Shown: piece after piece, positions 43,734 to 49,878 of the stretch
Layout of the letters: each line of letters starts with the position of its first letter
How positions within the stretch are numbered: position 1 is the first letter of the stretch
NCBI GenBank assembly: GCA_017434855.1
Contig: JAFRUA010000076.1
Coordinates: forward strand, 1 to 64,000
Reading direction: 5' to 3'
DNA from: Clostridia bacterium
Lineage (GTDB): Bacteria; Bacillota; Clostridia; Oscillospirales; Acutalibacteraceae
Length of the DNA: 64,000 nt
Notes under the pieces: model-generated
Seen by the model: the letters and a program-made list of their open reading frames with translations, nothing else
Databases searched by the model: none
What the model was told of the DNA's origin: nothing
Translations under genes and position numbers: made by a program

Positions 43734-44501
43734 TCAGACCGGTACAAAGCCGTCATACGTCAGTGTGCCGAGCTGCTCTGCCAGCCAGCCGATGCTGTCC
43801 GCGACCCAGTTTTTCACACGGGCGCAGACGTCGCCGCGCATCATCAGCGGAACGGCGGTCGAAAAGCCGTGCGTGCCGCGCGAATAGATGTGGCTTTCAA
43901 AGGGAATGCCGTGCATCGCGAGGGCCTGCTCCATCGCCAGCGTGTGGCGGATATCCACGGTCCGGTCGTCGCGGCCGTGGGCGAAAAAGCAGGGGCAGGT
44001 CGCGCTGTCCACGCATTGCTCCGCGGACGGAAGGCGCGGTTTGTCAGGCGTGACCACAGCGGGCAGGATCGAAGAATCCGGAAAGATCACGGGATAGACC
44101 AGCACGGCGGCCGCCGGCTTGTGCTGTGCCAGCGTCGCGGCACAGGCGGCAAGATGTCCCCCGGCAGAAAAGCCGACAATGGCGATCTTATCCGCGGCGA
44201 CGTGCCACTGCCGCGCGTGATCGAGAATGAGCTGCATGGCGTCCTCATAGTCATCGAGCGGCTGCGGCCAGGCGCAGGCGTCGCCGACGGTATAGCGCAG
44301 CACAAACGCCTGATAGCCCGCGTTTGCATAGGCCAGCGCGATGGGCTCCGCCTCGCGGTCGGAGCAGAACTGATAGGCCCCGCCGGGAATGACCAGCATC
44401 GCGGGGCGCTCAAGAAAGCCGTATTCCCCGCCGACGTCCTGCAGATACGCCGTCAGCGTCACGCCACGTTCGGGATGCAAAGGAATCGTTTGTATCCTCA
44501 T
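43734..44501 (-). CDS. Alpha/beta hydrolase (acetyl-esterase type)
   Basis: A 255-residue cytosolic hydrolase. The nucleophile is S112 in VGFSAGGHLAA, the oxyanion loop IPGGAYQ, with the acid in HGRDDRTV and the histidine in GTHGF. This layout fits short-chain or sugar-acetyl esterases. Its ATG overlaps the hydF stop (ATGA) and its AAAGGAGG binding site lies inside hydF, so it is a coupled part of the hydrogenase-maturation operon. A link to H-cluster chemistry is not known and may be coincidental. Confidence 0.85.
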   Translation of the reverse strand: MRIQTIPLHPERGVTLTAYLQDVGGEYGFLERPAMLVIPGGAYQFCSDREAEPIALAYANAGYQAFVLRYTVGDACAWPQPLDDYEDAMQLILDHARQWHVAADKIAIVGFSAGGHLAACAATLAQHKPAAAVLVYPVIFPDSSILPAVVTPDKPRLPSAEQCVDSATCPCFFAHGRDDRTVDIRHTLAMEQALAMHGIPFESHIYSRGTHGFSTAVPLMMRGDVCARVKNWVADSIGWLAEQLGTLTYDGFVPV

Positions 44502-45691
44502 TTTTGACCTCCTTTGAATGCGCGCAGGCTGCGCTGCAGAATGCCGTGCATCTGCGCGATCGCCACGCCGTAATTCACCATTGGTACGCCGGCAGCTTTT
44601 GCAGTGTTGATCCGGGTCTGCATCGCGGTCTCGTTGAGCATGCAGCCGCCGCAGTGGATCACCAGCCGGTACGCGGACAGATCGGTCGGAAACGTGCCGC
44701 CGCTGGTGAATTCAAACACGGGCTCGGCCCCGGTGTAAGCACGAATCCACGCGGGCAGCTTCACCGTGCCGATGTCGCCGCACTGGCGGTGATGGGTGCA
44801 GCCCTCGCTGATGAGGACTTTGTCGCCGTCCTTCAGCGAGGACAGTGCTTCCGCCCCGCGTACCAACGTGTCCAGGTCGCCCTTGTACCGCGCGAAGAGG
44901 ATCGAAAACGACGTCAGCGGCAGGTCGGGCGGCACCGTTTCGGCCACACGTTCAAACACCTGCGAATCCGTCACGACGATGCGCGGCGGCGTTTTGAGCA
45001 GCGACAGCGTCTGCGGCAGCTCTTCCGGCTGGCAGACAAAGCTCATGCAGTGGGCGTCCAGCACCTCGCGCAGCACCTGCTGCTGGGGCAGGATCAGCCG
45101 CCCCTTCGGCGCCGAGGCGTCGATCGGAACCACCAGCACCACGGCGTCGCCCGCTGTGAGCAGATCGCGCAGCAGGACCTTTTCTTTGGGACGCGCTGTG
45201 CCAAGGCGTGCCAGCGTTTCTTTCAGCGCATGGATGCCGTCGCCGGTTTTTGCGCTGACGTACACTTCGTTGTCAGTACCGTTCGGTACTACAGAAAGCA
45301 GGTCGGCCTTGTTCCGTACCACGAGGTATGGCGTCCCCTGCGCGCGCAGCAGCGAAATCAAATCCTCGTCCGCCGCAGTCAGGCCGCGCGTCGCGTCCGT
45401 CACCAGCACGGCAATGTCGGTTTCGCCGAGGACGCGCTTTGCCCGTGCCACACGCTGCGCGCCGAGCGCGCCTTCATCGTCCAGGCCGGGCGTGTCGATG
45501 ATGACCACCGGGCCCAGCGGCAGCAGCTCCATCGCCTTTTTCACAGGGTCGGTCGTCGTTCCCTTGACGTCGGAAACGACCGACAGCGCCTGCCCGGTTA
45601 CGGCATTGACCAGGCTCGACTTGCCGGCGTTGCGCACGCCGAAAAAGCCGATGTGCAGCCGTTCGCCCGAGGGGGTTGCGTTCAAGCTCAT
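44498..45691 (-). CDS. hydF: [FeFe]-hydrogenase maturation GTPase HydF
   Basis: HydF is the scaffold on which the diiron subcluster of the H-cluster is assembled before transfer to HydA; 397 residues. The GTPase domain has Walker A GVRNAGKSSLVNA, switch KGTTTDPV and DTPGLDDEG. The C-terminal cluster-binding ligands are visible in EGCTHHRQC and HCGGCMLNE. It lies 12 bases after hydG. The expected partner hydA is not in this window. Confidence 0.96.
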   Translation of the reverse strand: MSLNATPSGERLHIGFFGVRNAGKSSLVNAVTGQALSVVSDVKGTTTDPVKKAMELLPLGPVVIIDTPGLDDEGALGAQRVARAKRVLGETDIAVLVTDATRGLTAADEDLISLLRAQGTPYLVVRNKADLLSVVPNGTDNEVYVSAKTGDGIHALKETLARLGTARPKEKVLLRDLLTAGDAVVLVVPIDASAPKGRLILPQQQVLREVLDAHCMSFVCQPEELPQTLSLLKTPPRIVVTDSQVFERVAETVPPDLPLTSFSILFARYKGDLDTLVRGAEALSSLKDGDKVLISEGCTHHRQCGDIGTVKLPAWIRAYTGAEPVFEFTSGGTFPTDLSAYRLVIHCGGCMLNETAMQTRINTAKAAGVPMVNYGVAIAQMHGILQRSLRAFKGGQK

Positions 45692-45703: not shown

Positions 45704-47152
45704 TTAAAAGCGGAAATCGCGGCGATTGGAATGTTTGATGTCTTCGATGTGCTGCCGCGCGATCTCACGGACCTTTTCCTTCGGGATCTTTTCCAGCTCA
45801 CGCTCCACCATGGCATAGCCGATGGCTTTCGTTTCGGGCGAAGCGTAATCCTCCAGATATTCTGTCAGCGTCATCAGCGCGTTCGGGTGGCAGCAGTTGA
45901 GGATCTGACCGCTCTTGCACAGTGACATGAACCGGTCGCCGGTGCGGCCCTCACGGTAGCAGGCGGTGCAGAACGACGGAATGTGGTCGTTTTCCATCAG
46001 CCAGCGGACCACCTCGTCCAGCGTGCGCTGGTCGGAAACGTCGAACTGCTCGGTGTCATGCGGGCGCTCCTCTTCGGTATAGCCGCCGACGGAGGTGCGG
46101 GACCCGCCGCTGATCTGCGAAACGCCGAGCCGCAGCAGCTTGGCGCGGACGGCCTCGCTTTCACGCGTGGAAATGATCATGCCGGTATAGGGCACGGCCA
46201 GACGGATACAGGCCGTGATCTTGGCAAAGGTGTCGTCGTCGATCCCGCCGTCAAAGGTGTCGGGGTCAATGTCGTCCGCCTTTTTGACGCGCGGCACGCT
46301 GATCGTGTGCGGTCCCACGCCGTGCACGGCCTCCAGATGCTCGGCATGCATGATGAGTCCCGCGAATTCATACTTATACAGCTCCAGACCGAACAGGACG
46401 CCGAGGCCCACGTCGTCGATGCCGCCGTCCATGGCGCGGTCCATCGCCTCGGTGTGATAGTCGTAGTCATGCTTGGGGCCGGTGGGGTGCAGTTCAAGAT
46501 AGCTCTTTTTATGGTATGTCTCCTGGAACAGGATATAGGTGCCGATGCCGGCCTCTTTCAGCTTGCGGTAATTTTCCACCGTCGTGGCGGCGATGTTGAC
46601 GTTGACGCGGCGGATGTCGCCGTTTTTGTGGTGCACGCTGTAGATCGTGTTGATGCATTCCAGAATGTATTCGATCGGGTTGTTTTTCGGGTCCTCGCCC
46701 GCTTCGATCGCCAGGCGCTTGTGGCCCATGTCCTGCAGGGCGATGACCTCGGCGCGCACCTCGTCCTGGGTCAGCTTTTTGCGCGCGATGTGCTTGTTTT
46801 TGAGGTGGTACGGGCAGTACAGGCAGCCGTTGACGCAGTAGTTGGACAGATACAGCGGCGCAAACATGACGATGCGGTTGCCGTAGAATGCCAGCTTGAT
46901 CTCTTCCGCGATCTTATAGATCTCTTCGATTTTTTCCGGAATGTCGCATGCCAGCAGCACGGACGCCTCGCGGTGGGTCAGCCCCGCGCAGACGCAGCCG
47001 GTCGCGGTCTTTTGCGGCCGGGCCTTTTGCAGAATCCGGTCGATCAGTTCAACGTTGTGTTTGTTTTCCTCAGCATACGCGAGGGTGGCCTGAATCTCTT
47101 CATCGTTGATGAATTCTTCGGCCTTCAGGGATTTCGGATCATAAATTGCCAT
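45704..47152 (-). CDS. hydG: [FeFe]-hydrogenase maturase HydG (tyrosine lyase)
   Basis: Radical SAM enzyme splitting tyrosine to supply the CO and CN ligands of the H-cluster; 482 residues. The radical SAM cluster motif CxxxCxxC is NYCVNGCLYCPYH. The C-terminal auxiliary-cluster region has SFCTACYREGRTGDRF and a downstream cysteine in SLCKSGQ. The ATG at 47152 has AAGGAA 6 bases ahead; an earlier ATG at 47176 has no such site. Situated between hydE and hydF. Confidence 0.96.
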   Translation of the reverse strand: MAIYDPKSLKAEEFINDEEIQATLAYAEENKHNVELIDRILQKARPQKTATGCVCAGLTHREASVLLACDIPEKIEEIYKIAEEIKLAFYGNRIVMFAPLYLSNYCVNGCLYCPYHLKNKHIARKKLTQDEVRAEVIALQDMGHKRLAIEAGEDPKNNPIEYILECINTIYSVHHKNGDIRRVNVNIAATTVENYRKLKEAGIGTYILFQETYHKKSYLELHPTGPKHDYDYHTEAMDRAMDGGIDDVGLGVLFGLELYKYEFAGLIMHAEHLEAVHGVGPHTISVPRVKKADDIDPDTFDGGIDDDTFAKITACIRLAVPYTGMIISTRESEAVRAKLLRLGVSQISGGSRTSVGGYTEEERPHDTEQFDVSDQRTLDEVVRWLMENDHIPSFCTACYREGRTGDRFMSLCKSGQILNCCHPNALMTLTEYLEDYASPETKAIGYAMVERELEKIPKEKVREIARQHIEDIKHSNRRDFRF

Positions 47153-47179
47153 AATGCGTTCCTTCTTTATTTTCAAATA

Positions 47180-48220
47180 TTATTTGTCTTTTCGGTCGCC
47201 GCGATCGATGACAAGGGTGTAACCGATGGCTTCCATGCGGCGCTGCAGGCAGCCGCGGCACTGCGCGGATTCTTCACCGGTACAGATCTTGTTGTCATAC
47301 AGCGCATATTTTTTCCGCACGTCAACGGGCGACAGGTTCGGCATGACGACGTTTGCCCCGGCAAGGATGCCCTTTTCGCGCCCCATCGGGTCAACGGTCC
47401 CCAGCGCCGTGGTCGCCGGCAGCAGCAGCGTGGGATCGATCAGGCGCAAAATCGACAGCAGATAGCAGGTCAGCGCCGCCGTGCCTGCCGGTTCGTTCGC
47501 GAAGGGCGTGTCCTTTTGCGGAATGAACGGCCCGATGCCGACCATCGCCGGACGAAAGGTCTCGATGAACTTGAGGTCCTCTGCCAGATGCTGCGCCGTC
47601 TGGCCGGGCGAACCGACCATGAAGCCGCAGCCGACCTGATAGCCGATGGCTTTGAGGTCGCGCAGGCACCGCATGCGGTTGTCATAGGACATTTCCTTCG
47701 GGTGCAGGGCTTCATAGTGCGCCCGGTTGGCGGTTTCATGCCGCAGCAGATAGCGGTCCGCCCCGGCGTCAAACAGCGCCTGATAGCTTTGTCGGCTGCG
47801 CTCCCCGAGCGACAGGGTCACGGCAACGTCCGGGTGCATCGCTTTGATTTGACCGATCAGATCGCAAAGCACGCCGTCGGTAAAGAACGGGTCCTCGCCG
47901 CCCTGCAGCACCACCGTGCGAAACCCGAGTTCGTACCCCGCAGCGGCGCAGGCAAGAATCTCTTCCGGCGCCAGCCGATAACGGTCGCAGTGCGTGTTGC
48001 CGCGCCGGATGCCGCAGTACAGGCAGTCGTTTTTGCAGATGTTGCTGATCTCGATCAGCCCGCGCGTAAAGACCGTGGTGCCGTAGATCGCCTTGCGGGC
48101 TTTGACGGCGGCGTCGGCCAACGTCTGCGCCAGCGCGTCGGTGCGCTTTTCGATCAGCGCGCGATACTCCGGCACAGTCAGGCTGTGCGTTCGGATGAGC
48201 CGTTCGGCAAGGGTGTTCAT
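47180..48220 (-). CDS. hydE: [FeFe]-hydrogenase maturase HydE
   Basis: Radical SAM maturase that processes the HydG iron product toward the diiron subcluster; 346 residues. The cluster motif is ISNICKNDCLYCGIRR. Further blocks are VVLQGGEDPFFTDG and GCGFMVGSPGQTAQHLAEDL. The start overlaps the small regulator gene by 4 bases (ATGA), so the two are coupled. Confidence 0.95.
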   Translation of the reverse strand: MNTLAERLIRTHSLTVPEYRALIEKRTDALAQTLADAAVKARKAIYGTTVFTRGLIEISNICKNDCLYCGIRRGNTHCDRYRLAPEEILACAAAGYELGFRTVVLQGGEDPFFTDGVLCDLIGQIKAMHPDVAVTLSLGERSRQSYQALFDAGADRYLLRHETANRAHYEALHPKEMSYDNRMRCLRDLKAIGYQVGCGFMVGSPGQTAQHLAEDLKFIETFRPAMVGIGPFIPQKDTPFANEPAGTAALTCYLLSILRLIDPTLLLPATTALGTVDPMGREKGILAGANVVMPNLSPVDVRKKYALYDNKICTGEESAQCRGCLQRRMEAIGYTLVIDRGDRKDK

Positions 48221-48465
48221 TTGGCCGAAACCGCCGTTTTGACGCTGACGCCGGGCAGCGCGCCGATCTTTCCCGCCAGGGCGGAGATCGTATCCTGCGG
48301 CGCATCCAGCGCGATGGAAATGATGTTGATGTGTTTGGCATGATACGGCAGGCCCATGCGGCCGATGATATATTCCCCGTATTCATGCAGCAGGGCGTTC
48401 ATCGCCTCCACGGAATCGGCGTTCTCCACAATGATGCTCATCACAGCCACGCGTGTGTTTTCCAT
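48217..48465 (-). CDS. Iron-only hydrogenase system regulator (TM1266 family)
   Basis: An 82-residue ACT/NikR-C-like protein of the family that accompanies HydE/F/G. It reads MENTRVAVMSIIVENADSVE at the N-terminus and has the central block GEYIIGRMGLPYH. The ATG at 48465 follows GGAGG by 8 bases; upstream in-frame codons belong to the leader RNA. Putative regulator or metallochaperone; the mode of action is unknown. First gene of the maturation operon. Confidence 0.88.
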   Translation of the reverse strand: MENTRVAVMSIIVENADSVEAMNALLHEYGEYIIGRMGLPYHAKHINIISIALDAPQDTISALAGKIGALPGVSVKTAVSAK

Positions 48466-48487
48466 AAGCTTAACCTCCAAAAGAAAA

Positions 48488-48578
48488 TTGCCGCACCCTG
48501 ACAGATGCGGCAAGCTCCGCGCCAAACGGCACAGCATATTTGCAAAACGCACCTTTCACGCAGATCGGCTTTGCCGCC
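48488..48578 (-). promoter_or_regulatory. Candidate attenuator/riboswitch leader of the hyd operon
   Basis: Read on the minus strand, an 8-base hairpin TTGCCGCA/TGCGGCAA (48488-48495 with 48506-48513) is followed by TTTTCTTTT and then, at once, by the GGAGG of the first gene. This is an intrinsic terminator placed before the coding sequence. Further upstream GCGGCAAAGC (complement of 48568-48577) could pair, with one bulge, with GCTTGCCGC (complement of 48507-48515), the terminator's 5' arm, and so act as antiterminator. The fold matches no riboswitch class I recognise. Confidence 0.55.
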
Positions 48579-48601
48579 TTAGTGTCAGGATCAACAAGGA
48601 T

Positions 48602-48630
48602 AGTATACCACGGTTCAAAACGATATACAA
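48602..48630 (-). promoter_or_regulatory. Sigma-A promoter of the hyd maturation operon
   Basis: On the minus strand TTGTAT (complement of 48625-48630) and TATACT (complement of 48602-48607) are 17 bases apart. Transcription would begin near 48595, giving a leader of about 130 bases. Confidence 0.7.
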
Positions 48631-48699: not shown

Positions 48700-49878
48700 T
48701 TACGCGCATCGATTCAGCATCGTCAGCATGTCCACATACAGCGGGCGGATGTTTGTCGTGACCAGCAGCCCGCCTTCCAGCGACATGTGGTCGCCGTCAA
48801 AGTCCGGCATGACATTCCAGACGCCGGGCGCGGGCGTGTCTTTGGTCCGGTCAAAGTCGGTCTTTGGGGCATTGAACGGCGCCGTGGCGGAAATGGTGTT
48901 GACCAGGCCGTCGTTCTTTTGCCAGCGTTCGTCAATGACATAGCCCTTTGGCGTGACGCCGGTGTAGGAGCCGATGCGCTTTGACGCCGCGCGGAACAGC
49001 GGCTCCATCTCGTCTTCTTTTGGCGACCATGTGCCGTCTTCGTTCTGCACCACCTTGGAGCACGGCAGCGAGAAATAATAGACGTCCGGCAGCGTTTCAA
49101 AGCCCTCGCACATCTCCATTGCGTTGTCGATGTACATGTCATACATGGCGCTGTCGTCTTCGATGCGGCCGTCGCGCAAAGGTGAAAGCTGCGACAGCAC
49201 CGCCACCACCGCGCGTTCCTCTGCCGTGGCGTTCGGGTCCTCTCGAATCTCGTCGCGGACACTGTAGGCCGTGGTGCCGTTCATCGGCGCGGCCAGCGCC
49301 ACAACCGCATGGACCCAGTCCCCTTTTCCGCCCTTGAAAAAGTCAGAGAGTTCATTTTCCGGCGTTGCGGCGCGCTCCGCCTCGCTGCCGGCATGCATGA
49401 GCTGCAGGAACATCAGCACCGTTGCCCCGCCGAAGGAATGGCCCAGCAGGTTGATCTTATCCGTTGCGCTGAAGCGCTTGATCAGCGGCCGGCCGACATA
49501 ACTTTGCCCGTAGCGCCGGTGATGGCAGCGCTCGGAATGCTCCTTGCCGTAGTCCACGCGGGTCCCGGTCAATTGGGCATACAGCTCGCAGGCGCGGTCC
49601 CAGGCGCTGGCGCCTTCGTTGACCGAAGCTGCCGCACAGTTGAAGCCCCGCGCGTTGAGATACTTCATCAGGTCGCCGCCGCGCACGCCCCAGTACGGAA
49701 ACATATCGTAATAGATGTCATACGCGCCCCAGCCGCCGAGGCCGTGCACAAAGACGTTGGTATAGGTCGTTTTAAATGAGTCCTTGTCCACCGTCGCTTT
49801 CGGAACGTTTGCCCACGGCATGACAAGCATGACGAACGACAAGATTGCCGATGTGATCTTTGCAAAGAGTTTTTGCAT
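48700..49878 (-). CDS. Exported lipase-like alpha/beta hydrolase
   Basis: A 392-residue secreted protein with a signal peptide (FAKITSAILSFVMLVMPWANV). The lipase features are the oxyanion segment NVFVHGLGGWGAYD and the nucleophile elbow LLGHSFGG (S148). The layout resembles family I.5/staphylococcal-type lipases, including an insertion rich in His and Arg (about 110-125) that may bind metal. It has its own promoter. Acyl-ester or lipid substrates are expected; specificity is unknown. Confidence 0.83.
   Translation of the reverse strand: MQKLFAKITSAILSFVMLVMPWANVPKATVDKDSFKTTYTNVFVHGLGGWGAYDIYYDMFPYWGVRGGDLMKYLNARGFNCAAASVNEGASAWDRACELYAQLTGTRVDYGKEHSERCHHRRYGQSYVGRPLIKRFSATDKINLLGHSFGGATVLMFLQLMHAGSEAERAATPENELSDFFKGGKGDWVHAVVALAAPMNGTTAYSVRDEIREDPNATAEERAVVAVLSQLSPLRDGRIEDDSAMYDMYIDNAMEMCEGFETLPDVYYFSLPCSKVVQNEDGTWSPKEDEMEPLFRAASKRIGSYTGVTPKGYVIDERWQKNDGLVNTISATAPFNAPKTDFDRTKDTPAPGVWNVMPDFDGDHMSLEGGLLVTTNIRPLYVDMLTMLNRCA

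Follow-up and report, generated by a model that had tools for sequence, protein, structure and literature searches.

A conserved hairpin in the leaders of clostridial hydrogenase maturation operons: evidence for a transcription attenuator and a candidate riboswitch class for H-cluster assembly

We identified a conserved RNA hairpin, coupled to an intrinsic terminator, in the leader of the hydrogenase maturation (hyd) operon of a Clostridia bacterium (Acutalibacteraceae; GCA_017434855.1, contig JAFRUA010000076.1, positions 1-64,000; this whole 64,000-nt stretch of DNA is referred to as the window); by our own count, confirmed hyd-linked copies are spread over 14 GTDB families within the class. 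We put about even chances on a switch that works by attenuating transcription, turns off the genes of H-cluster assembly and most likely belongs to a new riboswitch class. The original prediction had named a "possible new riboswitch or attenuator". As far as sequence evidence reaches, it is borne out by an aptamer-like conserved domain, covariation, mutually exclusive pairings, association with hyd genes and the lack of an Rfam match. Its attenuator half is well supported; the riboswitch half, meaning direct binding of a ligand, is the most likely reading, though a protein, in particular TM1266, could act as sensor instead.

The operon TM1266-hydE-hydG-hydF extends from 48465 to 44498 on the minus strand, and all four genes exceed their NCBIfam cut-offs (Table 1). 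A promoter giving a leader of roughly 130 nt had been claimed, and a suitable site was found: its -35 box is weak and the site falls below the threshold of the promoter scan of the window, and it occupies the place, seen from the motif, at which several relatives have better TTGACA/TATAAT-like boxes. From its position, transcription is predicted to start near 48595, consistent with the claimed length. The terminator likewise lies where it had been placed, directly before the first ribosome-binding site of the operon, which follows the stem-loop and U-tract immediately and precedes the TM1266 ATG at 48465-48463. The interval first delineated, 48488-48578, fell slightly short, as the conserved element starts at 48592. 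The leader folds better than its shuffles (z=-4.1, 0/200), and its minimum free energy (MFE) structure has the terminator disrupted.

Table 1. Features of the hyd leader and operon in the window.
Feature	Coordinates	Strand	Details and basis
Promoter	48602..48630	(-)	-35 TTGTAT 48630-48625, 17-nt spacer, -10 TATACT 48607-48602; read from sequence
Conserved aptamer-like hairpin, ~45 nt	48548..48592	(-)	covariance model R1 match, E 2.1e-8 in own genome; window in training set
P1	within 48548..48592	(-)	C48589 C48588 U48587 with A48554 G48553 G48552; covariation
GA/AA loop, then middle helix		(-)	C48584 A48583 C48582 with G48557 U48558 G48559; covariation
P2, variable hairpin	48562..48579	(-)	A48579-U48562, G48578-C48563, G48577-U48564, CGGC/GCCG, loop AAA
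AGGUGCG, 3' strand of P1, common to antiterminator	48548..48554	(-)	pairs with 48509-48503, -10.4 kcal/mol
Terminator 5' arm, also antiterminator partner	48513-48503	(-)	own versus swapped pairing test
Intrinsic terminator stem-loop TTGCCGCATCTGTCAGGGTGCGGCAA	48488..48513	(-)	10-11 bp, -17.5 kcal/mol, then TTTTCTTTT
U-tract TTTTCTTTT	48479..48487	(-)	read from sequence
Ribosome-binding site GGAGG	48474..48478	(-)	read from sequence
TM1266-family gene, first in operon	48217..48465	(-)	TIGR03959 4.9e-33; PF21699; PDB 2nzc relative
hydE, radical SAM maturase	47180..48220	(-)	TIGR03956 6.6e-167
hydG, radical SAM tyrosine lyase; start may be further downstream	45704..47176	(-)	TIGR03955 3.4e-277
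hydF, maturation GTPase	44498..45691	(-)	TIGR03918 1.5e-165

Two further genes flank this region. An esterase-like gene (43734-44501; lp_1002 family, below cut-off) shares 4 bases with the end of hydF and is a possible operon member, and a lipase-like gene (48700-49878), whose best NCBIfam match is a YSIRK lipase below cut-off, has a good promoter at 49937-49908 (TTGACG-N18-TATAAT).

The consensus of the motif reads ACCUGACAYNAAG, a short variable hairpin and CUGNGUGAAAGGUG, followed by a linker and the terminator. Its general fold, exemplified by the predicted fold of one relative (L064), consists of P1 (3-4 bp), a GA/AA 2x2 loop, a 3-bp helix (CAY/RUG), a second 2x2 loop and P2; the second loop also separates the middle helix from P2 in the window. 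The near-invariant CUG-N5-AAG is repeated on both strands, which lends the core a pseudo-two-fold symmetry. Across 38 distinct sequences, in an alignment fitted to the covariance model, two-sided changes occurred at 7 of 10 pairs, with 21 double-changed cells (0/500 shuffles; kinship ignored), and a MAFFT alignment of 19 sequences gave the same picture. The first P2 pair not constrained by our scan pattern was paired in 125 of 132 non-redundant sequences versus 67.5 in shuffles, kinship again ignored, being A-U in 67, C-G in 28 and G-C in 26, and the P2+4 pair was formed in 23 of 28 versus 14.6 in shuffles. Covariation of a non-Watson-Crick kind links positions 12 and 38, where a purine goes with A and a pyrimidine with C (Fisher p 9e-18, uncorrected for relatedness). 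Positions fixed by the scan pattern are conserved by construction and carry no weight as evidence of conservation. The compensatory changes that the original prediction had made its check are thus present in the hyd leaders of relatives, and the comparison points to a conserved RNA domain with covarying helices, as expected of a riboswitch.

Association with hyd genes holds at every taxonomic level covered. Among 34 genomes of the genus, TM1266 was detected in 23, and the motif lies upstream of it in all but one of these leaders (22 of 23); the exception (L021, genome G022) is a TM1266 gene that lacks the RNA element. The first covariance model (R1) matched 22 of the 34 genus genomes, including that of the window, at E below 1e-5, and the matches were the hyd leaders; in other genera of the family, matches at E<0.003 were again hyd leaders, preceding either TM1266 or the hyd operon, and a rebuilt model (R2) recovered the element across the order and class. 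Covariance model matches weaker than E about 0.01 fell mostly on unrelated sites. A blastn-type DNA search of the family with the leader returned no match except the leader itself, so the element appears conserved in structure and not in overall sequence.

A core pattern blind to gene context, scanned over ~85,000 genomes, yielded at least 118 loci, 116 of them with enough downstream sequence. Among the matches listed, TM1266, hydE or hydG lies downstream in 113 of the 116 testable loci and TM1266 directly downstream in 107 of the 118; the three exceptions among them are L146, L243 and L172, the last (from a Thiodiazotropha MAG) probably a chance match. The element stands before hydE alone in L113 and L132 and before hydG alone in L136, genomes in which TM1266 is located elsewhere without an element of its own. 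It also occurs upstream of aspA-hydF in two related genomes (L267, 1010-3861; L268, 8931-6198), which supports a tie of aspartate ammonia-lyase to H-cluster assembly; this enzyme is known in hyd operons, where it supplies ammonium and thereby the nitrogen atom in the dithiomethylamine ligand (PMC11736057). Such association with functionally coherent genes is as expected of a riboswitch.

In agreement with the claim that no known class fits, searches of Rfam 15 with the window and 20 relatives gave 0 matches above the gathering cut-off, and permissive searches gave chance-level matches only, the best far below cut-off. A T-box leader was considered and rejected, as the T-box covariance model had no match in the window or relatives. 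No RNA that regulates [FeFe]-hydrogenase maturation was described in the literature searched, and hyd genes go unmentioned in the main text of two papers on new structured RNAs (PMC11109978, PMC8632094).

A mutually exclusive antiterminator and terminator, i.e. an expression platform of the riboswitch type, is present in these leaders. Besides closing P1, the strand AAGG(U/A)NNN can base-pair with the terminator 5' arm across leaders. In the window, the segment that had been said to do so is AGGUGCG, and GCGGCAA (48577-48571) can pair with the same arm as well (-13.1 kcal/mol); the terminator 3' half can also pair with UCCUGACA at the 5' end of the leader (-11.9 kcal/mol). In 90 leaders with a clear terminator, pairing of the motif 3' strand with its own terminator arm came to -12.26 versus -10.07 kcal/mol when arms were swapped between leaders (z=-10, 0/5000), which indicates that the P1 3' strand and the terminator 5' arm co-vary. 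MFE and terminator-forced structures have equal energies (median difference 0). The terminator is broken in the MFE of only 22 of 91 whole leaders; the MFE of single sequences is no sufficient guide to the resting state. Pairing between CCUGACA, on the 5' side, and the 3' half of the terminator was rejected as the main alternative and kept as secondary, being weakly above swapped controls (z=-2.2, 75/5000) though strong in the window. Four leaders (L009, L012, L014, and L015) carry repeat-like insertions (aatgcagaatgc..., attccgaattcc...) between aptamer and terminator, and the switch would need to tolerate a long linker there.

We propose that, without a signal, the hairpin strand AAGGUGNNN would pair with the terminator 5' arm, leading to antitermination and production of the hyd genes. 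A molecule binding the CUG-N5-AAG/CUG-N5-AAG core would stabilise P1, which would take the strand back, whereupon the terminator would form and transcription would stop upstream of the first ribosome-binding site. As A48554, G48553, and G48552 are common to P1 and the antiterminator, a stabilised P1 should free the terminator, and it is from this overlap that we infer the OFF direction. The arrangement resembles that of terminator-type OFF riboswitches (e.g. TPP, SAM-I, and FMN), in which P1 acts as the anti-antiterminator and its 3' strand is common to the antiterminator, and here too control extends to biosynthesis genes and, in other genomes, to an ECF S importer; unlike those classes, the present element matches no Rfam 15 family in sequence or core, and its gene set is H-cluster assembly. 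Against the riboswitch reading, P1 has only 3-4 bp and the core is small and pseudo-symmetric.

In 16 Oscillospiraceae-type MAGs (L143, L145, L146, L168-L170, L180, L187, L193, L196-L198, L215, L243, L254, and L255), the element controls the gene for an ECF-transporter S component, with TM1266 between the two in 14. At 14 scan loci, TM1266 is followed by this gene, encoding a membrane protein of ~180 residues, in place of hydE/G/F; in L146 and L243 the element directly precedes it. Single-sequence searches with one or two members gave no Pfam or NCBIfam match, and a scan of all 16 assigned 13 of them to the ECF S-component family PF12822, with matches allowed at E up to 10; the best E was 3.2e-12, and the first member scored 38.6 bits versus a cut-off of 30.7. 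The AlphaFold model (pLDDT 89) had TmRibU as its top structural match (Z 18.7, 3.4 A over 165 residues, 18% identity), and the best 20 PDB matches by Z were S components or ECF-type permease chains. By PF12822 and by its modelled S-component fold, the protein is thus predicted to be an ECF S component like RibU, ThiT, and PanT, differing from these in that its gene lies under the hyd-leader RNA; none of the substrate families matched it above cut-off.

Whole-genome searches of the same 16 genomes, mostly MAGs of unknown completeness, found HydE, HydF, and HydG above cut-off in 0/16, 0/16, and 0/16, and joint chance loss of three genes in all 16 is unlikely; four maturase-bearing controls, run for HydG and HydF, were all positive (HydF split in one). 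The [FeFe]-hydrogenase catalytic domain (PF02906) is nonetheless present in 16/16 at E 1e-66 or better, with the three H-cluster motifs (TSC[CS]P, MPCxxKK, and CPGGC) in the best match of 13, while a form without MPC is the only one seen in 3. A hydrogenase without detected maturases, and an importer under the same RNA, suggest, as the simplest reading, that these relatives import the H-cluster's [2Fe] part, or a precursor, from their surroundings. Such import is chemically possible, since apo-HydA from E. coli without HydEFG becomes active once synthetic [2Fe]adt is added to cells (PMC8960641). That artificial maturation likewise yields active hydrogenase from an external complex without HydEFG, but it is a laboratory procedure, whereas natural uptake by a dedicated importer is what we infer here; natural import of an H-cluster precursor was not described in the literature searched.

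The probable signal is the H-cluster's [2Fe] precursor or a closely related small molecule, because the element controls the maturases where they are present and the ECF importer where they are missing. Known vitamin riboswitches control both biosynthesis genes and ECF S importers, and one switch over makers and importer would, by analogy, fit the sensing of a shared product. A protein-free interaction with such a ligand would make the RNA a riboswitch for an organometallic H-cluster precursor, coupled to a natural salvage route in which the same switch governs a dedicated ECF transporter: gut bacteria with an [FeFe]-hydrogenase and without HydE/F/G would import the [2Fe] precursor from their neighbours. 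Taken jointly, we regard this proposal as tentative, with odds clearly on the low side.

Similarly tentative, and the chief alternative to direct sensing, is the idea that TM1266 itself is the sensor, an oligomer of which, with or without an H-cluster-related ligand, would bind the hairpin and cause termination as operon feedback. TM1266 is encoded in all 22 motif-bearing genus genomes and in 9/9 order and class genomes with matches, it directly follows the element in the great majority of the listed loci (107/118), and it persists together with the RNA at 14 of the 16 loci that lack maturases. It is an 82-aa NikR-C/ACT-like protein (the NikR_C similarity being weak), usually encoded first in the operon, and the twice-occurring CUG-N5-AAG would suit a dimeric protein, LicT and its RAT sites being the comparison case. 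As in LicT/SacY RAT and PyrR attenuators, a short conserved hairpin with symmetric internal loops overlaps the terminator decision; unlike in those systems, the protein has no known RNA-binding domain or activity, and the element has no RAT or PyrR match at curated thresholds (PyrR model, 18 bits versus a cut-off of 54). Moreover, TM1266 genes unlinked from hyd genes (L269-L271) have no motif of their own, so that self-feedback is not general, and TM1266 in L021 lacks it as well.

A general signal of anaerobic iron metabolism (Fe2+ or another metal, SAM, tyrosine, or ammonium), with the ECF S component importing something unrelated, seems improbable. HydE and HydG do use SAM, tyrosine, and iron, and the ammonium-supplying aspA of hyd operons (PMC11736057) carries the motif in L267 and L268; however, the 116 testable loci listed precede H-cluster or ECF S genes, apart from the likely chance match L172, with no general iron, SAM, or amino-acid genes behind them. 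Retention of the element where HydE and HydG were not found also makes their substrates, SAM and tyrosine, less likely signals than the H-cluster precursor. Sensor-free tuning by constitutive hairpins, or a decision by leader-peptide translation, is very improbable, as unpaired core positions that a simple attenuator does not need are conserved and, although 16 of 97 leaders have a closed ORF of at least 6 codons (counting ATG and leaving out GTG and TTG starts), 0 of the 16 has a Shine-Dalgarno-like sequence.

The element is widespread in gut Clostridia and offers a handle on the regulation of H2 production, and it points to genomes that have catalytic-type [FeFe]-hydrogenases and a dedicated importer gene with no maturase found. 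If H-cluster precursor is passed between cells, this cofactor would be vitamin-like in the gut community. The maturase-less genomes carry more than one type of [FeFe]-hydrogenase (L279, L282, L283, and L285 versus L287-L295), and the hydrogenases that lack the MPC motif (L296-L298) may be sensory forms.
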